Source: Phycisphaerae bacterium
GTDB lineage: Bacteria; Planctomycetota; Phycisphaerae; Sedimentisphaerales; Anaerobacaceae
NCBI GenBank assembly: GCA_021736645.1
Contig: JAIPFM010000132.1
Coordinates: 1 to 64,000 of the forward strand
Reading direction: 5' to 3'
Length of the DNA stretch: 64,000 nucleotides
A model generated the notes under the pieces. That model saw only the letters and a program-made list of their open reading frames with translations. It did no database searches and was not told where the DNA came from. The position numbers and the translations under genes were made by a program. This document shows, in pieces, positions 1 to 20,122 of this stretch (the first letter of the stretch is position 1; the number at the start of each line of letters is the position of its first letter).

Positions 1-240
1 CTGGGTCTGCAGGGCCCTCTTCAGGGCCTCCTTTTCCTGGATTTGTTTCTGTTGGGCCTGATCTGTTTTCAAGTCCTCAAGCTCACGTTGCAGTTTTTGA
101 ATCGTCTGCTCCAGTGCAGACATCCGATGGCTGATGTCGCCGTCGCTGGCCGGAATCGAATCTTGTGCTTCTTCGCCCAGGATTGTCATGGAGGATGTCA
201 GGCATATCAGTACAAAAACATGGAACCATTTTTTACGCAT
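1..240 (-). CDS. Exported coiled-coil protein, N-terminal fragment (cut by window edge)
   Basis: Minus-strand reading frame of 80 codons, open to the left edge. It starts at the ATG complementary to 238-240, with AGGAAG 5 bases upstream. The N-terminus (MRKKWFHVFVLICL...) is a signal peptide of about 23 residues. Residues 35-80 are rich in Leu, Gln, Glu and Lys with heptad spacing (HRMSALEQTIQKLQRELEDL), a coiled coil. A signal peptide followed by a short coiled coil is common at the start of OprP/phosphate-selective-type porins and of other envelope proteins, but the rest is missing, so the family is open. It lies 127 bases downstream of the His-rich gene on the same strand. Confidence 0.7.
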   Translation of the reverse strand, partial: MRKKWFHVFVLICLTSSMTILGEEAQDSIPASDGDISHRMSALEQTIQKLQRELEDLKTDQAQQKQIQEKEALKRALQTQ

Positions 241-367
241 ATCACTTCCTTCAATGATCTGTTGAATTCTAAATGATGAAGGCGCCCTCCAATCACAAGG
301 ATGGCAGGCATGCCTCAACAGAACGGAATGAATTGAGATACGTCTTGCGGCAAAGATCGAGGAGATC

Positions 368-808
368 CTAGGCCGGCCAAGTATCCCAATACTGCCCAAG
401 GGGCGGGCCGCGTAGAATGATACTGGTCGTCCACGGAGAAGACATGAAATGATCCCTGTCTGTACACGGGATCAATGACTGAGAGCAGGGTAGGACGTGG
501 GTCCATGCCCCGCTCCGCAAACGTTTGAATGTCTGGAGCTGACTCAGGTAGGCGCAGAATACGCATGAATGGCCTTCATGCGTATTCGTCAATCTCGACA
601 TTTGAGATGGATCCGTGGAGGCGACATGCGGCTCATGAGCATTGTGTGAGAGGTGGGTTGTATGGCAGTATACCGGTTCAGACCCTAATCTGGGGCATGC
701 GGCATTGCCCTCCGAATGATGGTGGAAGAGCGGTACCAGACAATTGACAAGCAAATACCAGCCTGCCAACATGCCCAAGATCGATTTCTGTGGCCACCTT
801 CGGATCAT
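368..808 (-). CDS. His-rich DUF2946-like membrane-anchored protein
   Basis: 146 residues. A hydrophobic segment (about residues 10-27, ILGMLAGWYLLVNCLVPLF) is followed by FHHHSE, many further His residues, a CVFC pair near residue 82 and a late RGPP motif. One N-terminal membrane segment, a His stretch, a Cys pair and a C-terminal R-x-PP are the hallmarks of DUF2946-like proteins, which often sit beside metal-transport or porin genes. A role in metal handling is inferred from composition only. No clear ribosome binding site precedes the ATG at 808, so the start is uncertain. The next gene on the strand encodes the exported coiled-coil protein. Confidence 0.6.
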   Translation of the reverse strand: MIRRWPQKSILGMLAGWYLLVNCLVPLFHHHSEGNAACPRLGSEPVYCHTTHLSHNAHEPHVASTDPSQMSRLTNTHEGHSCVFCAYLSQLQTFKRLRSGAWTHVLPCSQSLIPCTDRDHFMSSPWTTSIILRGPPLGQYWDTWPA

Positions 809-912
809 ACGGCTTCACACTTAAATGCAACCACCATTATGGACCAGCAAATCATGACCCATAGGTACATTAATCGTTATGGTATATCAAGATAAAAATT
901 CGTCCCCGTGGA

Positions 913-2598
913 TCACGACACGAGTTTTTCATAGGGCCAGGTCACTACACCACCGTCCATCACCCGAACCTTTTTGAATCCTGCCGCCTTGAGTATCAAG
1001 GCCGCTTCATAGCCACGCAGAGATATTTTACAGAACGTAATGACCTCCTTATCTTTGGGCAACTCACCAAGTCGCCTGCGCAAGGCCCCCAAGGGGATCA
1101 AGATTGAGCCTGGCAGACGTACCTGCTCATGCTCTCCGGGGCTGCGAACATCCAGAAAGGTAAAGTCCAGTTTCTGTTCCAGCATGGTATGGACGTTCTC
1201 TGCAGAGATCCCCTCCATGTAACCGTCCAGCTTGTTGCGCATGACATTGGCCGCAGTCAGAATGTTGTCCATGGCAGGGGCATAGGGCGGCGCATAACAC
1301 AGGTCTGCATGGGCCAATTGATCCACGGTCCAGCCTGAAGTCAGGGCCATGGCCACCACGTCGACCCGCTTGTCGCCCGCACCTGGGCCCACTGCCTGTA
1401 CGCCCAGCAGCCTGCGACTCTTGCGGTCTGCAATCAGCTTTAGAATCAGAAGCCTGGCTTCAGGCATGAAATGGGCCTTGTCCGGGGCCGGTGCCAGGAT
1501 CGTGGCTGTATCATAGCCATGGTCTTTCGCTGCACTCTCGCCCAGGCCTGTGCGCGCTACGCAATAGTCAAATACCTTGCACACCGTGCTGCCAAGGACA
1601 CCCGGAAAGTGGTCTTCTCCGCCGCACAGATTGATCGCTGCAACCCGGCCCTGCTTGTTGGCCGTCGACCCCAGGGGTACAAAACAGCCTTTTCCTGTCA
1701 TCAGGTCGGTGGATTCGACACAGTCACCGGCGGCGTAGATATCCGGATCACTGGATTGCATGCGATCCGTAACCTTGATTCCGCCTGAGGTGCCGATGTC
1801 CAGGCCTGCAACCTGGGCCAAGGTGGTATTGGGACGAACGCCAATGGCCAGGACGACCATATCCGCGGCGAAACGGCCGGCACTGGTTTGTACTGCTGAT
1901 ACGACCCCATTACCTTCAATGGCTTCCAGACGGGTATGCGTCAATACCTTGACGCCGTGAGACTCCATGTGCTTCTCCACCAGACGGGCCATGTCCAGGT
2001 CGAGGATACGCAGAATCTGGGGCATCATCTCCACTATCGTGACACGGCAGCCGTGTTGAACCAGGGCTTCCGTGATTTCAACGCCGATCAGACCTCCGCC
2101 CACGATCACGACATCACGTGCCTTATTCTCAGCCAAAGCCGCGCGAATGCCCTCGGCATCATGGACGCCCTGAAGTGTAAACACGTTCTCCAGATCCGTG
2201 CCTGGGATGGGTGGGATGACCGGTGTCGCCCCAGTGCATAATACCAGTTTGTCGTATTCCAGCCAAGACCGCTGATTCTGCACCAGGTCGTGTATTTGAA
2301 CACGCTTCTGTTCACGGTCTATTTGTATGGCTTCCGTTTGATTGAGCACCCTCACGTTTTTTACGTGTTGGAAAAAGATGGAATCACGTACTGTGCCTAC
2401 AGGCGTGGCCATCAATTCTTTTTGGTCCTTGACCACGCCGGACACATAGTAGGGCAGTCCACACCCTGCGTAGGAAAGGAGCTTGCCCTTTTCAATGACC
2501 GTGACCTCGGCATCCGGGCATAGACGAATGACTTTTGATGCTACTTTGGGACCGGCAGCAACGCCCCCTACAATCACGACGCGGAATTTATTTTTCAT
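913..2598 (-). CDS. CoA-disulfide reductase with C-terminal rhodanese domain (CoADR-RHD)
   Basis: 561 residues. The N-terminus has a Rossmann FAD motif (GGVAAG, residues 11-16) and SYAGCGLPYY with a single redox Cys46, the mark of CoA-disulfide/persulfide reductases as opposed to dithiol flavoproteins. A second dinucleotide fold (IVGGGLIGVE) follows near residue 165, and AAGDC near residue 290 is the FAD-binding end motif. The last ~100 residues form a rhodanese domain with Cys523 in the loop CKISLRG. The family uses NAD(P)H to reduce CoA disulfide, CoA persulfide or polysulfide, and the rhodanese domain delivers sulfane sulfur. The gene lies 42 bases after the RACo-like gene and is probably cotranscribed with it. 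The function is confident; the physiological substrate is not. Confidence 0.9.
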   Translation of the reverse strand: MKNKFRVVIVGGVAAGPKVASKVIRLCPDAEVTVIEKGKLLSYAGCGLPYYVSGVVKDQKELMATPVGTVRDSIFFQHVKNVRVLNQTEAIQIDREQKRVQIHDLVQNQRSWLEYDKLVLCTGATPVIPPIPGTDLENVFTLQGVHDAEGIRAALAENKARDVVIVGGGLIGVEITEALVQHGCRVTIVEMMPQILRILDLDMARLVEKHMESHGVKVLTHTRLEAIEGNGVVSAVQTSAGRFAADMVVLAIGVRPNTTLAQVAGLDIGTSGGIKVTDRMQSSDPDIYAAGDCVESTDLMTGKGCFVPLGSTANKQGRVAAINLCGGEDHFPGVLGSTVCKVFDYCVARTGLGESAAKDHGYDTATILAPAPDKAHFMPEARLLILKLIADRKSRRLLGVQAVGPGAGDKRVDVVAMALTSGWTVDQLAHADLCYAPPYAPAMDNILTAANVMRNKLDGYMEGISAENVHTMLEQKLDFTFLDVRSPGEHEQVRLPGSILIPLGALRRRLGELPKDKEVITFCKISLRGYEAALILKAAGFKKVRVMDGGVVTWPYEKLVS

Positions 2599-2640
2599 GA
2601 TGTTATCTCCCTTGAATTGGCTGAATTTCTTACACGGACA

Positions 2641-4491
2641 CTACGGCAGATCAGGGAATATCATGGCATCGGCAAACTCCATTTGAAATTCCAGGTCCAG
2701 GGAGAGCTCCAGGTGCTTTGCTTGCCGAGCCGATGTTTCTGCCTGTTGACGGGCACGGGAAGACAAGAGGGCCAATTTCGACCCGGCCAAAGATACATTA
2801 CCCACGTAACTGATTCTATTGAGGTCGATTTCTATGGGCAGCAATCCAATGGCCTGGGCATTGTCGCGCCTGATAAAACTGCCGAACCCTCCGGCAATGA
2901 AGACCTGGTCGATGGCCTCGGCCTTGATGCCGGCTTGTTTGAGCATGATCTTGATGCCGGCCCGAATGGCGCCGACTGCGAGTTGAAGCTCTCTGATGTC
3001 ACGCTGTGTGAGCACGATACGTCCATCCGCGGAGCCCTGGTTGGCATGCGCGATTAGAAACTCGAGCTGTCCTTCAGAGTTTTCAGAGACCCTGTGCTGC
3101 ATGGCCCCGGCTGTGTTCGGCAACTGATTCACTGGAAGCAACTGTCCGGTCGAGGAGATCATGCCGACTTTTCGCAATACAGCCGCCAGATCAATCAGCG
3201 CGCTGCCGCACAGTCCGACTGGGGACACATTCCCAATGACACTGCAGTGCACATCTTCGTTCAATACAATCTTCTCGATGGCCCCTGTGGTGGCCCTCAT
3301 GCCGCAGCGAATGCGGGCCCCCTCAAAGGCCGGCCCTGCAGCCGTGGAGGCCGCCCAAATCTTGCCGTTCCTGGCGAGCACGATTTCCCCATTCGTGCCG
3401 ATATCTATCATCAAGACTGTCCCTTGGTTATCATGAATGTTGGTGGCCAGCAGCCCGGCCACTGTATCGCCGCCCACAAACCCCCCAATCAAGGGAAACA
3501 CATAGACCCTGCCATGCGGATTGATGGGCATCTCCAGGTCACGAGCACCGAGCCAGAGGCCTCTGGCATGCGCCGGTACAAAAGGGGACTGCCCCAATGG
3601 CGCAGGATCGATACCGCACAGCAGATGTTCCATGGTGGTGTTGCCGGCAAAGACAGCCTCGTAAATCATATGAGGTGAGATCGAGGCCTGCTCACACAGG
3701 TCAAGAATCATTTCCGTGACGGCTGTTTTTACCGAGTGCCCCAGGTCTTCGAGATTGTCTGCTGACAATGAGGCATGCTGAATCCGTGACAAGACATCGT
3801 CTCCAAAGGCCACCTGCGGATTCATCTGCGACGTCATGGCCAGTTCGTCTCCATTGACAAGATTGTGTAAGGACGCCGCCAAAGTGGTGGTTCCGATGTC
3901 AAACGCGACACCGTAACATTGGTCCGTTGTATTGCCTGGCTCAAAATCGATCAAATCATGGCCAGCCAGGACGGCTGTGCCTTTGTACTCCTGGTGTCGA
4001 AGCCGGCTGGGTAAACGGCGAAGCAAAGGCAGATCAATTTCGAACTTGTCGATCGCGGCTTCCAGTCTCAGTACATCAGCATCATTGTCCTGCATGGAGG
4101 GCTTGGGCAGTTCAACATAGATCTTGCGAAGGGCAGGGGACAGGTCTGTGACCGTGGGTGTCTGAGACTCGGTGACGATCTGATGTCGACCTGTAAAGCA
4201 GGATTGTTCAGGGACATAAGCCACGGTTTCCTGCTGGACCACGGTCTGGCAGGCCAGACGCCAGCCCTCTTTCAACTGAGTGGCACTGAAGTTGAGGATA
4301 TCAGCCTCTGAAGGATTACCGGCATTTGTGGCGACCTGGATCCTGCATTTTCCACAGGTGCCTGCGCCGCCACACGGCGTATTGAGAACCAAACCTGCCT
4401 GTGTTGCAGCCTGAAGGAGTGTGTTGCCTTCAAGCACCTTAACAGTTTTTTCATAAGGTTTAAAAATGACGCTTATTGGCTGCTTTGACAT
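2641..4491 (-). CDS. RACo-like [2Fe-2S] ferredoxin/ASKHA-domain protein (DUF4445)
   Basis: 616 residues from the ATG at 4491. A start at 4518 would add nine residues before the conserved MSKQPISVIF. The N-terminal plant-type ferredoxin domain carries Cys40, Cys46, Cys49 (PCGGAGTCGKC) and Cys81. The remainder is an actin-like ATPase fold with FDIGTTT (about residue 210), a Gly-rich GGFVGGDTVAG and DIGTNGEI. The family includes RACo, the ATP-dependent reductive activator of corrinoid proteins, but many members serve unknown targets. No corrinoid methyltransferase gene lies nearby, so the partner is open. It is followed at once by the CoA-disulfide reductase gene. A weak sigma-54-like element lies about 140 bases upstream. 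Confidence 0.85.
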   Translation of the reverse strand: MSKQPISVIFKPYEKTVKVLEGNTLLQAATQAGLVLNTPCGGAGTCGKCRIQVATNAGNPSEADILNFSATQLKEGWRLACQTVVQQETVAYVPEQSCFTGRHQIVTESQTPTVTDLSPALRKIYVELPKPSMQDNDADVLRLEAAIDKFEIDLPLLRRLPSRLRHQEYKGTAVLAGHDLIDFEPGNTTDQCYGVAFDIGTTTLAASLHNLVNGDELAMTSQMNPQVAFGDDVLSRIQHASLSADNLEDLGHSVKTAVTEMILDLCEQASISPHMIYEAVFAGNTTMEHLLCGIDPAPLGQSPFVPAHARGLWLGARDLEMPINPHGRVYVFPLIGGFVGGDTVAGLLATNIHDNQGTVLMIDIGTNGEIVLARNGKIWAASTAAGPAFEGARIRCGMRATTGAIEKIVLNEDVHCSVIGNVSPVGLCGSALIDLAAVLRKVGMISSTGQLLPVNQLPNTAGAMQHRVSENSEGQLEFLIAHANQGSADGRIVLTQRDIRELQLAVGAIRAGIKIMLKQAGIKAEAIDQVFIAGGFGSFIRRDNAQAIGLLPIEIDLNRISYVGNVSLAGSKLALLSSRARQQAETSARQAKHLELSLDLEFQMEFADAMIFPDLP

Positions 4492-4679: not shown

Positions 4680-5126
4680 TCACTCTTTCGTTAATGGGCC
4701 AGTCGTGTCGGCTACACGGATGTGGTAATGAACCGGGCAGGTCATTGAGTTGGAGACCAGACAGTACTTTTCGGCCAATTGGCCCAGTTTGGCGATTTCA
4801 TCTGACTGTTGAGCATCCCGGGGGGAGACAGTCGCGGTGACCTGGACCTCAGTAAATCGCAAACCCTGCTTGGTTTTTTCGACCTTGCCCTGAGCCTCGG
4901 ATTGGTAAGAGGCGATGTTCACCTTGTGTTGATTCGCAAAGTGATAGAACACCAGCATGATGCAACTATTAATCGATGCGACAAACATTTCTTCAGGATT
5001 CAGGGTATCCGGGCTGCCCCCATAAACCTCAGGTGCTCCCACGGGGGTGTTTTCAGCAGTACCAGCCATCTGTGTGGTCGCGATTTGTTCGCCCTGTCGT
5101 ACCAGACTGTTTTTAAACCATTCCAT
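4680..5126 (-). CDS. OsmC/Ohr-family peroxiredoxin-like protein
   Basis: 148 residues from the ATG at 5126, which has AAGGA about 8 bases upstream; an upstream ATG at 5162 has no such site. The fold is OsmC-like, with the peroxidatic Cys55 in NSCIMLVF on the central helix and a second redox Cys (Cys122 in YCLVSNSMTC, or Cys130) near the end. OsmC proteins reduce organic hydroperoxides with thiols, and some act on persulfides or other sulfur species. It is the last gene after the PAS gene and a 29-codon ORF, in a block of redox genes. Confidence 0.85.
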   Translation of the reverse strand: MEWFKNSLVRQGEQIATTQMAGTAENTPVGAPEVYGGSPDTLNPEEMFVASINSCIMLVFYHFANQHKVNIASYQSEAQGKVEKTKQGLRFTEVQVTATVSPRDAQQSDEIAKLGQLAEKYCLVSNSMTCPVHYHIRVADTTGPLTKE

Positions 5127-5152
5127 GTATAAAGTTCCTTTCACTATGTTAT

Positions 5153-5242
5153 CTATGAGCAAGTGCTTCGTTCGGATTGTTGAGAGACTTCATTTGTGTC
5201 CGAGGGTGTGTCCTCAATGACTTTTAATTTATCACATGGCAT
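5153..5242 (-). CDS. Predicted 29-residue small protein
   Basis: Minus-strand ORF from the ATG complementary to 5240-5242 to the TAG at 5153-5155. AGAAGGAG sits about 6 bases upstream, one of the best ribosome binding sites in the window. The product starts MPCDKLKVIEDT, is Ser/Thr/Glu-rich, has a Cys near each end, and no membrane segment. It lies between the PAS gene (ends 5255) and the OsmC gene (starts 5126), spaced for cotranscription. No family is recognised. It could be a short redox or metal peptide, or the remnant of a longer gene. Confidence 0.5.
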   Translation of the reverse strand: MPCDKLKVIEDTPSDTNEVSQQSERSTCS

Positions 5243-5254
5243 TTCTATCTCCTT

Positions 5255-5671
5255 CTAAGGTTTCAATAGACCCTCTAGGAGCCTGTCGGAGAATCCATCG
5301 TTAAAGCCCGAGAGCGAGCAATTTGACCGGTTGGCAAAGAGGCCGAAGCAGGCGATGTTGGTTTTATCGTCGATGCAGGCCGATGCAGCCAGGCGGTCAA
5401 AGGGCCGCTCGAAGCTAGATTGGGTTCTCCGACAGGCTCCTAGAATGGTTTTTTCGTCAGCACCCACCTGGCTGCCCATGACCTTCGCAATGTTGCCGCC
5501 AAACAGCTTGCCCATGAGCCCCACAATCTCCTCGGAGGCATACTGAGTCAATTCCTCAGCCGAACGATTCCAGAAGATAATGTGGTTGTTTGTATCCACC
5601 ATGAAGACGGAACAGGGCACTGTCTCCAAAAGGGCTTCGCGAAAATGCTTATTTGTCTTGATCATGTCCAT
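5255..5671 (-). CDS. PAS-domain protein whose C-terminus is encoded by an inserted element
   Basis: 138 residues. Residues 8-75 are a PAS fold (VPCSVFMVDTNNHIIFWNRSAEELTQY..EEIVG), a sensor module that binds a small ligand or protein partner. About 55 residues after DEKTIL are encoded inside an inverted-repeat element (5275-5443) that adds 165 bases in frame without a stop. Removing the element and one copy of CTAG rejoins the frame as a PAS protein of about 83 residues ending EGLLKP. The gene starts 8 bases after the NapH-like gene and so belongs to its operon. There is no output domain, so it probably acts on a partner protein. Whether the extended form is functional is unknown. Confidence 0.65.
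   Translation of the reverse strand: MDMIKTNKHFREALLETVPCSVFMVDTNNHIIFWNRSAEELTQYASEEIVGLMGKLFGGNIAKVMGSQVGADEKTILGACRRTQSSFERPFDRLAASACIDDKTNIACFGLFANRSNCSLSGFNDGFSDRLLEGLLKP
5275..5443. mobile_element. MITE-like element with 23-bp terminal inverted repeats, flanked by CTAG
   Basis: The left end CTAGGAGCCTGTCGGAGAA and the right end, read on the other strand, agree at 22 of 23 positions. Both ends carry CTAG, which may be a duplicated palindromic target. The 169-bp length is too short for a transposase, so this is a non-autonomous element, probably moved by a transposase elsewhere in the genome. It lies in frame inside the PAS gene. Confidence 0.75.
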
Positions 5672-5678
5672 GGGTCAA

Positions 5679-6815
5679 TTATGTGGGCTTATCCTGACTT
5701 CTCTTACATCGTCCAAAACGGATGGAATCAGTGGGGCAGACCTCGATACACGCGCCACAGGAAAAACAGTCAGGCACAGTCTTCTCTCGATCAAGGATAT
5801 GGGTCATGACCGTGGTCGGGCAGGTCTTGGCACAGGCCCTGCAATCAATGCAGGTGTCACGGTTGATTCGAATCCTGAAGACACTGAACCTTTCCACGAT
5901 CCAGCCGACCAGCCCGAATGGGCAGAACAAATGGCACCAGGGTCGGTACACCACCAGACTCAAAAGCACTATGACGCCGGCAAACACGCCTCCCAGTATG
6001 CCTAATGCCTGTGGCTTGAATACCTTAAAGGGGTCGATCGTTTCGACGATATCAAGGCCCCACAGCAGCGCGACTCCGGTGAATCCAACAAAGAACACGA
6101 TACGTACGGCATTGGATACGACAAAGGGAATCTTGCGCCGCTTCAGGACTCCCGAAGAGGTCTTTCGCTCGTGCATGATGCGGAACAGCACATCTTGAAG
6201 TGTCCCCAGTTGGCAGCCCCAGGCACAGATCAGCTTGTTGGCCAGGAAGACCATCAGCAGGAGAACCGCAAACGCGATCAGTCTGGGAGGGAAAATCACC
6301 CCCTTGGACGCGAATAGAACAATGGCGTCTTTTACCGTGCCCATAGGGCTGGGATCAGATCCCAGGAGAACCCCAAACACCGCCACTGCAATCAACAACA
6401 GCCAGGAGCGGTTGCTTTTTGTGATCCGTCCCTTTTTCAAGAGCCCAAAGACTGTCACCAGCCAGATGATCCAAAGGGAGAACTTCAAGGCAATTTTCTT
6501 CCAGTTCTTGCTTTCGTGTTCACTCTGCAATGCCATGGCCTGATTGACTTTTTTGGTCAACTGTTCCTGGGTCAGGCCGAACGACAGCACCTTTTTCTGA
6601 AGGTCCTGTTTTGACTCCAGGCCAAAGATCTTCTTTAAGGTAGGATTCGCCAGGTGATTCACCTGACCAAATGTCTCCACGGTCATGTCGGGCTGGAAGG
6701 TCATTGTCTGATCTGCCTCGATTTTTTCTGGCTTTCCGCCCCATACCTTTGTGGATACCATGGATAGCAGAATGACTGACACGAGAAGCCATAAAACCAA
6801 GATAACCTTCTGCAT
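5679..6815 (-). CDS. NapH/YccM-like membrane protein with two [4Fe-4S] clusters
   Basis: 378 residues from the ATG at 6815, preceded by AAAGGAGC; the upstream ATG at 6878 is less likely. After a signal or membrane segment (residues 4-22) comes a periplasmic stretch of about 85 residues, then roughly five membrane helices with CxxxC motifs ICAWGC and WCHLFCP at membrane edges. A C-terminal ferredoxin domain has Cys322/325/328/332 and Cys350/353/356/360. Members of this family (NapH, NosR C-terminus, RdxA/CcoG-like) move electrons between quinol and periplasmic or cytoplasmic acceptors. No nitrate or nitrous oxide reductase gene is adjacent, so a role in a sulfur or metal redox route is inferred from the neighbours. 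Confidence 0.8.
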   Translation of the reverse strand: MQKVILVLWLLVSVILLSMVSTKVWGGKPEKIEADQTMTFQPDMTVETFGQVNHLANPTLKKIFGLESKQDLQKKVLSFGLTQEQLTKKVNQAMALQSEHESKNWKKIALKFSLWIIWLVTVFGLLKKGRITKSNRSWLLLIAVAVFGVLLGSDPSPMGTVKDAIVLFASKGVIFPPRLIAFAVLLLMVFLANKLICAWGCQLGTLQDVLFRIMHERKTSSGVLKRRKIPFVVSNAVRIVFFVGFTGVALLWGLDIVETIDPFKVFKPQALGILGGVFAGVIVLLSLVVYRPWCHLFCPFGLVGWIVERFSVFRIRINRDTCIDCRACAKTCPTTVMTHILDREKTVPDCFSCGACIEVCPTDSIRFGRCKRSQDKPT

Positions 6816-6957
6816 AAAAGCTCCTTTGCATTGCTGAATGAATAGGTGACCCATTGATTCGGTAGTTAAAATGCTCACCCTGTTAAACGGAGTCCGAATT
6901 CATTTCCTGCGATTTATAATGAGAGATTATCGACTTCTTCAATGGATGGATTCTCTG

Positions 6958-9108: not shown

Positions 9109-9168
9109 AAGCGTGATACAGGAATGACTTAACCAGGGTTAAGCATGGCCCTATAAAGGAGAATTCAA

Positions 9169-9405
9169 ATGCCTTGTAGAGATGGAACAGGACCCAGGGG
9201 GCAGGGCCCCATGACAGGTCATGGGGGTGGCGATTGTGTGTTGCGTGAATCACAAAGGCGTCCCGGGTGTTTTTATGGCATTCTTGGAAGACATGGGAGA
9301 CCGGCTACCCTGAACATGGATTCGAGTCTATTGCCTTTCAATTCGCCATGTCTCAAATCCAAAAGAGACCAAAGTGTAAAGCTCAACAGGCTCCCTAAGG
9401 GGTAG
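9169..9405 (+). CDS. Short DUF5320-like Gly-rich protein
   Basis: 78 residues, with AAAGGAG 7-8 bases before the ATG. The N-terminus MPCRDGTGPRGQGPMTGHGG is the typical DUF5320 start seen beside NifX/orange-protein genes in anaerobes. The rest (Cys, Arg, Ser rich) does not resemble the usual Gly/Arg/Phe-rich continuation, and an alternative frame also runs open to about 9396, so an old frameshift is possible. It is the first gene after the sigma-54 promoter, 5 bases before pdaD. The function of the family is unknown; association with metal-cluster proteins is inferred from gene neighbourhoods. Confidence 0.6.
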   Translation: MPCRDGTGPRGQGPMTGHGGGDCVLRESQRRPGCFYGILGRHGRPATLNMDSSLLPFNSPCLKSKRDQSVKLNRLPKG

Positions 9406-12675: not shown

Positions 12676-12769
12676 ACCACGGTTCGCAGCGCGTAAGACT
12701 GGTTTATTCAATCAACCGTAAACCTGGAACCGTGAACTGTGAACCTTAGTTTTTGAAAGGAGTATGATC

Positions 12770-13084
12770 ATGCCAGGTGGAGATAGAACAGGACCCATGG
12801 GGGCAGGCCCCATGACAGGACGAGGCGCAGGGTACTGCGCAGGATACGGGATGCCGGGCTATACGGGTCGAGGCTTTGGCCGTGGGTTGGGTGGCGGTCG
12901 AGGGTTTGGTCGGGGCTGGCACAGGGGAATGGGTGCCAGGTTTCACGCCTGGTGGCAAAATACGCCAGTGTCACAGCCTGACCCGATCCAGGAACGCCAG
13001 ATGCTGGAGCAAGAGGCGGCCTATTTGAAAAATCAGGTCGAACAGATTCAAAACAGACTGAATGAATTAGGAGAATCCAGTTGA
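12770..13084 (+). CDS. DUF5320 Gly/Arg-rich protein with C-terminal coiled coil
   Basis: 104 residues from the ATG at 12770, which lies 7 bases after AAAGGAG; an ATG at 12764 is too close to that site. MPGGDRTGPMGAGPMTGRG is followed by a GRGFGRGLGGGRGFGRG stretch and a C-terminal helix (QERQMLEQEAAYLKNQVEQIQNRL), the usual DUF5320 plan. These proteins regularly neighbour NifX/orange-protein and Mrp genes; their role is unknown. The TGA overlaps the TTG start of the next gene, so the two are translationally coupled. Confidence 0.8.
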   Translation: MPGGDRTGPMGAGPMTGRGAGYCAGYGMPGYTGRGFGRGLGGGRGFGRGWHRGMGARFHAWWQNTPVSQPDPIQERQMLEQEAAYLKNQVEQIQNRLNELGESS

Positions 13085-19135: not shown

Positions 19136-20038
19136 ATGTGGATTTGGCTGGGATTGGTTTCGATGCTGCTGCTGGGGTTTTACGATCTCAGCAAAAAACA
19201 TGCACTGAAGAATAACGCGGTTCTGCCGACCCTGTTTTTCTCCAACCTGACTGGGGCCTGTCTGGCGCTGCCCGTTATTCTGGGCTCCCTGCTTTTACCA
19301 GATGTGATGGCATCCATGGGTGTGTATGTGGCCCCCCTGACAGCCAGAGGGCACGGTCTTCTGGTACTTAAATCGATGATTGTCGGCAGCTCTTGGATCT
19401 GCGCGTTCTTTGCGATGAAGCACCTGCCGATTTCCATTGTGTCGCCGATTCGCGCTTCGGGACCCATGTGGACGCTGGTCGGAGCGATCTTTCTTTTTCA
19501 TGAACAGCCATCGCCTTTGCAGTGGGCAGGCATGATGCTGATTTTCACAGGCTACTTTGGTTTCTCGATACTGGGGCGCGAGGAGGGCATTCATTTTCAC
19601 CGGAGCAAGTGGATCGGTTTGATTTTTCTGGCCACGCTCATCGGGACCTGCAGCACCTTGCTGGATAAGTATTTGATCCAGCGGCAGAATTTTTCGGCGA
19701 TGCAGGTTGTTTCCTGGTATACGGTTTATTTGTGTCTCTTTTTTACCCTGGTCAATGGATTGATCTGGTTTCCTCAGCGACACAAACATACCCCGTTTGT
19801 GTGGCGATGGACAGTGCCCATGATAGGTGTTCTGCTGGTACTTTCCGATGTAGTCTACTTGATGGCGCTCATGTATCCGGAGGCCATGATCATCATTCTC
19901 TCGGTGCTTCGCCGGTGCAGCGTGCTCGTTGGATTCTTTGTGGGCGCGGTCATTTTTAAAGAAGTCAACAAACGCAAAAAAGCCTGGGTCTTGCTGGGCA
20001 TTATGATCGGTGTGCTGTTGATCATTCTCGCAGGCTGA
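19136..20038 (+). CDS. EamA-family (DMT superfamily) transporter
   Basis: 300 residues with about ten membrane helices in two repeated halves, as in EamA permeases. Conserved features are the Lys-rich first loop (YDLSKKHALKNN), SPIRASGPMWTLVGAIFLFHEQPSPLQW in the first repeat and LSVLRRCSVLVGFFVGAVIFKEVN in the second. Family members export or import metabolites such as amino acids; the substrate is not predictable. AAAGG lies just upstream of the ATG. It stands alone, convergent with the Rieske gene. Confidence 0.85.
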   Translation: MWIWLGLVSMLLLGFYDLSKKHALKNNAVLPTLFFSNLTGACLALPVILGSLLLPDVMASMGVYVAPLTARGHGLLVLKSMIVGSSWICAFFAMKHLPISIVSPIRASGPMWTLVGAIFLFHEQPSPLQWAGMMLIFTGYFGFSILGREEGIHFHRSKWIGLIFLATLIGTCSTLLDKYLIQRQNFSAMQVVSWYTVYLCLFFTLVNGLIWFPQRHKHTPFVWRWTVPMIGVLLVLSDVVYLMALMYPEAMIIILSVLRRCSVLVGFFVGAVIFKEVNKRKKAWVLLGIMIGVLLIILAG

Positions 20039-20122
20039 GACCCCTTGAAGCACAACCTGTTTGCCATCTCAAGGCCATTGAGAGCAGGTGTAAGAGGGCA
20101 TGTCTTTTGACGTACATGATCC

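Follow-up and report, generated by a model that had tools for sequence, protein, structure and literature searches.

A 169-bp palindromic element lies inside an open reading frame (ORF) of a planctomycete genome, within the 64,000-nucleotide stretch of DNA analyzed here (the window), and the frame reads straight through it. The locus thus raises the question of whether mobile DNA has donated a segment to a working protein or has landed in a gene in which the frame stayed open by chance. The first-pass annotation, made from the sequence alone, took the former view, describing a transposon fragment that supplies about 55 residues to a PAS protein. We consider it very probable that an IS1182-type MITE was placed at a CTAG of a PAS/DUF302 fusion, with the frame remaining open by chance and the product carrying no preserved function.

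With both CTAG tetranucleotides included, the complete element occupies positions 5275–5443 (169 bp; net insert 165 bp), as delimited from its ends, its copies, and the empty site deduced from DUF302-type relatives. An inverted-pair search located its left (5275–5297, plus strand; CTAGGAGCCTGTCGGAGAATCCA) and right (5421–5443, minus strand) terminal inverted repeats, the left one harboring a 19-bp end common to the IS1182-family elements described below. These repeats belong to the sole long inverted pair in the window (5274–5297 with 5421–5444; 24 nt, 96% complementary), so that the 169-bp length, the 23-bp inverted ends, and the CTAG site originally described were all borne out. Both ends contain an exact match to the 16-mer GGAGCCTGTCGGAGAA, which has no other occurrence in the window, even when up to three mismatches are allowed. 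The sequence and a tally of flanks place one target copy of CTAG on the 5′ side of the host gene (5440–5443) and the other at 5275–5278. The host gene reads ATT CTA G...C CTA GAG GGT across the element, with CTAG on either side and a CTA (Leu) codon at both junctions; excision of the element with one CTAG removes 165 bases, or 55 codons, and restores ATT CTA GAG GGT (I L E G). No target bases were lost and, as CTAG is palindromic, a 2-bp (TA) and a 4-bp duplication are indistinguishable. In size (169 bp, below the ~400 bp typical of MITEs) and ends (24-bp arms bounded by CTAG, 23–24 bp by either delimitation), and in having no transposase-like ORF inside, the element has the makeup of a MITE.

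Multiple dispersed copies in a single genome, also expected of a MITE, are present as well. The 5.88-Mb draft genome that contains the element has ~40 matches to it, the best copy being full length and 84% identical, and the terminal-repeat pattern gave 40 matches there (22 forward, 18 reverse), compared with one for the reversed control. The prediction that copies would exist elsewhere in the genome was therefore confirmed, and their absence, which would have counted against a mobile element, did not occur. Numerous copies also occur in G001 and G002, which belong to the same genus, and in G028, from another genus of the same family; a further genome (G035) yielded one short match. For the 53 copies whose two ends could both be placed, CTA predominates as the left flank and TAG as the right. 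The copies carry two end types, GGAGCCTGTCGGAGAA and GGCTCTGTCTGAAAA, on a single conserved core. The strong conservation of this core between the two types, seen from window positions 5275–5443 and the copy alignment, suggests exchanged ends.

The exact 19-bp end, CTAGGAGCCTGTCGGAGAA, is present in many phyla. In representatives of the Dehalococcoidia (L224), Desulfobulbaceae (L168), and Syntrophobacteraceae (L185), two ends of this type, with at most a few mismatches, surround 1610–1625 bp that include a transposase, giving complete elements of 1.61–1.63 kb. All three transposases match Pfam DUF772 and DDE_Tnp_1_6, and those of L168 and L185 match NCBIfam transpos_IS1182 (E < 1e-110). In addition, two genomes of the same family (G006 and G024) contain related transposases with similar, CTAG-bounded ends. 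Because its ends match those of the complete 1.6-kb insertion sequences of the IS1182 family found in other bacteria, and the three elements provide the autonomous counterparts, the window element is, as judged from sequence, a non-autonomous MITE of the IS1182 type, and a complete one rather than the transposon fragment originally proposed. It would have been mobilized in trans by an IS1182-family transposase. In its own genome, neither a PF13751 search nor a search with the L168 transposase found an IS1182 transposase gene, an absence that carries little weight in a draft; the same is true of G001 and G002, also drafts, in which the L168-type transposase had no match, G002 showing only a partial PF13751 match to an IS1182-like transposase without the ends of the MITE. 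Repeated IS copies may often be missing from draft MAG assemblies, and a MITE can outlive its autonomous partner. Two loci in G028 and G002 (L097 and L098) were rejected as the IS1182 source, as they do not have these ends. An IS630-type origin, with TA within CTAG as the target, was likewise rejected, the DDE_3 loci of relatives also being without them. A literature search combining IS1182 and CTAG returned nothing relevant. As separate observations, the transposase ORF of L224 is continuous in frame, through the left terminal repeat, with an ORF upstream of it, forming a 961-aa fused ORF (153–3038), and the 19-bp end occurs once in the genome of a Rickettsia endosymbiont of Culicoides impunctatus (L213, 354–372), with an imperfect inverted partner nearby (TCAGACAGATTCTTAG).

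A single strand of the element is predicted to fold at −87.9 kcal/mol (z = −8.9). The consensus hairpin, derived from 36 copies, contains 52 pairs, 25 of which show changes on both sides, and 97.2% of alignment cells pair, compared with 32–45% when partners are slid. None of 500 shuffles reached the observed pairing values; the slid control, unlike the shuffle, allows for the relatedness of the copies. The window copy itself carries a paired change in the inner stem, where TTTTTTCG/CGGAAAAA has become TTTGACCG/CGGTCAAA. This very stable fold, maintained by compensatory changes, could mean that the element acts at this locus as an RNA or DNA structure, for example as a hairpin toward the 3′ end of the transcript, with an effect on decay or on the expression of the downstream OsmC gene. 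However, the structure is kept family-wide at whatever site a copy has landed, which points to a need of the element and not of the locus, and we found no terminator-like site at the element and no matching Rfam family. A local structural role is thus unlikely, and the hairpin is probably a family-wide trait that serves the element itself. These alignments document, in Planctomycetota, a family of IS1182-type MITEs whose hairpin is well supported by compensatory changes.

Whether the inserted residues could matter depends on the host gene. The host ORF (5255–5671, minus strand; 138 aa) was parsed from the ORF list, Pfam, and relatives into half a PAS domain, a DUF302-type tail, 55 aa encoded by the MITE, and a terminal EGLLKP. 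Residues 1–51 (5519–5671, minus strand) form the N-terminal PAS half, which is closest to the PAS domains of sigma-54 regulators (62–67% identity to L073–L075). They are followed by the DUF302-type C-terminal tail LMGKLFGGNIAKVMGSQVGADEKTI (5444–5518, minus strand), located before the insert, and the remaining native tail, EGLLKP and the stop, comes after it (5255–5274, minus strand). In a search of 99 genomes, residues 4–55 matched the PAS domains of ~460–500-aa sigma-54 regulators, and residues 38–82 matched a separate set of relatives, a family of ~180-aa proteins. The latter carry a DUF302 domain, according to Pfam matches in the two loci tested (L085 and an ORF of L076), and end in ...MGxxVxxDExxIL-EGLLK-stop, the final segment of relatives being IL-EGLLK[N/D/E] and a stop. 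Thus, the element does lie inside an ORF with a PAS part, as first described, but the host joins half a PAS domain to a DUF302-type tail, and EGLLKP proved to be the C terminus of the DUF302-type family and not the end of a PAS protein. The PAS match covers only profile positions 3–44 of 113, short of a complete PAS fold. The DUF302 match in a relative spans residues 78–135 of 170, a stretch absent from the host ORF, which shows no Pfam match to DUF302 and contains only the tail beyond that domain. By these sequence matches the host ORF is chimeric, a PAS half-domain being joined to the end of a DUF302-type protein; because both domains are incomplete, it is probably a deletion relic, and the simplest reading would be a deletion fusion that left two incomplete domains. 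A second PAS/DUF302 junction is found in a single-contig genome (G058), in which the C-terminal half of a DUF302 protein comes after a PAS part but in a different frame (L076, 1474–2087).

The uninterrupted form of the gene that had been sought in relatives was recovered at the protein level, as 11 DUF302-type relatives read ..IL-xGLLK with no insert at the MITE site in the protein alignment; at the DNA level, the data contain no empty allele of the exact locus, and the genomes of the same genus are without the gene. In no relative was the inserted sequence an integral part of the PAS family, the outcome that would have argued against an insertion. The downstream gene (4680–5132, minus strand) is OsmC-like by Pfam, and in four relatives (L081, L082, L084, and L090) a DUF302-type gene adjoins an OsmC gene, matching the position of the chimera, which suggests that the DUF302-type gene normally precedes OsmC. 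Just upstream lies a gene for a 4Fe-4S membrane protein, assigned by Pfam (5679–6878, minus strand), and L082 has a DUF302-type gene, an OsmC gene, and a relative of this 4Fe-4S gene together. Between the chimera and OsmC, we also noted a small ORF, MPCDKLKVIEDTPSDTNEVSQQSERSTCS (5153–5242, minus strand), with a good ribosome-binding site (AAGGAG). Elsewhere in the window, a 64-nt direct repeat (9155–9218 and 12756–12819; 80% identical) covers the ribosome-binding site and start of two similar small genes (M-P-x-x-D-x-T-G-P-x-G).

The ORF at 5255–5671 has no stop through the element, its predicted product includes the peptide PFDRLAASACIDDK, and it ends in ...DRLLEGLLKP; the statement that a net 165 bases keep the frame open and rejoin EGLLKP therefore held. 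Such a frame is common in this family. The one used at the host ORF (−0) is stop-free in 39 of 65 full copies (60%), 147 of the 390 frames are open when all six are counted, and 9.2% of copy–frame combinations are both open and of a net length divisible by three. Many copies are traversed by chance ORFs of more than 100 aa, and, judged without a gene caller, most of the copies examined seem to be located outside genes, with varied frames. Because 39 of the 65 copies are open in frame −0 and ~9% of combinations are open and in frame, the open frame needs no selection, and read-through of the MITE in the host ORF is about as expected by chance. The further claim, that the element supplies ~55 residues of protein, reduces to a coding possibility in a relic-like host.

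These data bear on the proposal that the insert is a tolerated or even useful protein segment, with the chimeric protein being produced and functional, as has been suggested for the palindromic elements of Rickettsia. The open host frame and the rejoined native tail are consistent with it, as is a second in-frame copy in the same genome (L020, 1500–1683; contig C97, ~19870–20053), inside an otherwise continuous gene with a DUF3656/collagenase domain (U32 peptidase). This copy is placed between GLCP and NQG...EPLYL. Relatives L270–L275 match the protein continuously across the insert site, the two that were aligned (L270 and L272) being without the insert; the 5′ end of the gene is lost at a contig end. 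The U32-peptidase gene looks otherwise conserved by these comparisons, and its insert appears to be a better candidate for a tolerated insertion in a working protein than that at the PAS/DUF302 locus. For the window ORF itself, the half-length PAS match, the missing DUF302 domain, and a frame that is open in most copies whatever the host argue against this proposal, and we regard it as very improbable. Very doubtful in our judgment, too, is the hypothesis that a planctomycete MITE with one hairpin core and two IS1182-like end types has come under selection to keep its minus-strand frame readable and repeatedly contributes segments to proteins, both in the host ORF and in the U32 peptidase, as an RPE-like palindrome outside Rickettsia. 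An assembly artefact that joined PAS and DUF302 pieces or collapsed repeats is very improbable: although the genome is a 234-contig draft with several MITE copies at contig ends, the window lies inside a 70-kb contig in which the element and both flanks are contiguous, the host-gene tail is correct on either side of the element, unlike at a misjoin there, and a similar PAS/DUF302 junction occurs in the single-contig genome.

The history that we favor, insertion of an IS1182-type MITE into a PAS/DUF302 fusion, would have proceeded as follows. A deletion would have fused a PAS-domain gene to the 3′-terminal ~33 codons of a DUF302-type gene, before or after the MITE arrived, any order given to the two events being an inferred one. 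An IS1182-family transposase acting in trans would have recognized the CTAG-GAGCCTGTCGGAGAA ends and inserted the MITE at the CTAG of CTA GAG (Leu-Glu), so that each junction carries a CTAG. Because the net length is by chance divisible by three and the family usually has no stops in its minus-strand frame, the ORF would have stayed open and gained 55 codons, and its product, if made, would presumably have no preserved function.

Among known systems, the MITE shares the CTAG-GAGCCTGTCGGAGAA ends with the 1.6-kb IS1182 insertion sequences but has no transposase gene; its conserved palindromic core is its own, and no autonomous copy was found in its genome. IS1272 is grouped with IS1182. The staphylococcal IS1272 transposes by replacing an inverted-repeat target, leaving no duplication (PMC5678879); the preference for a palindromic target is alike, whereas here relatives show that nothing was lost and CTAG is found at both ends. 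In-frame insertion of short palindromic elements in genes is already known from Rickettsia and Coxiella, and the PAS/DUF302 locus alone is an ordinary case of this phenomenon. QMITE1 and QMITE2 of Coxiella burnetii, a different bacterium, overlap gene 3′ ends and are sometimes in frame within hypothetical ORFs (PMC5896051); by description our MITE, in frame near the end of its small host gene, resembles them. The closest precedents by analogy appear to be the Rickettsia palindromic elements (RPEs), short palindromes inserted in frame in genes (Ogata et al. 2000, 2002; PMC10969869), which likewise are ~150-bp palindromic elements read in frame inside protein genes. Compared by description, RPEs are often in frame and encode a conserved peptide, whereas the MITE presents one weak and one better case, and most of the copies examined appear to fall outside genes, with frames that vary. 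Two in-frame MITE insertions are documented in one planctomycete genome; were the U32-peptidase case shown to be expressed, functional proteins that harbor selfish DNA, as exemplified by Rickettsia, would be known from a further phylum.
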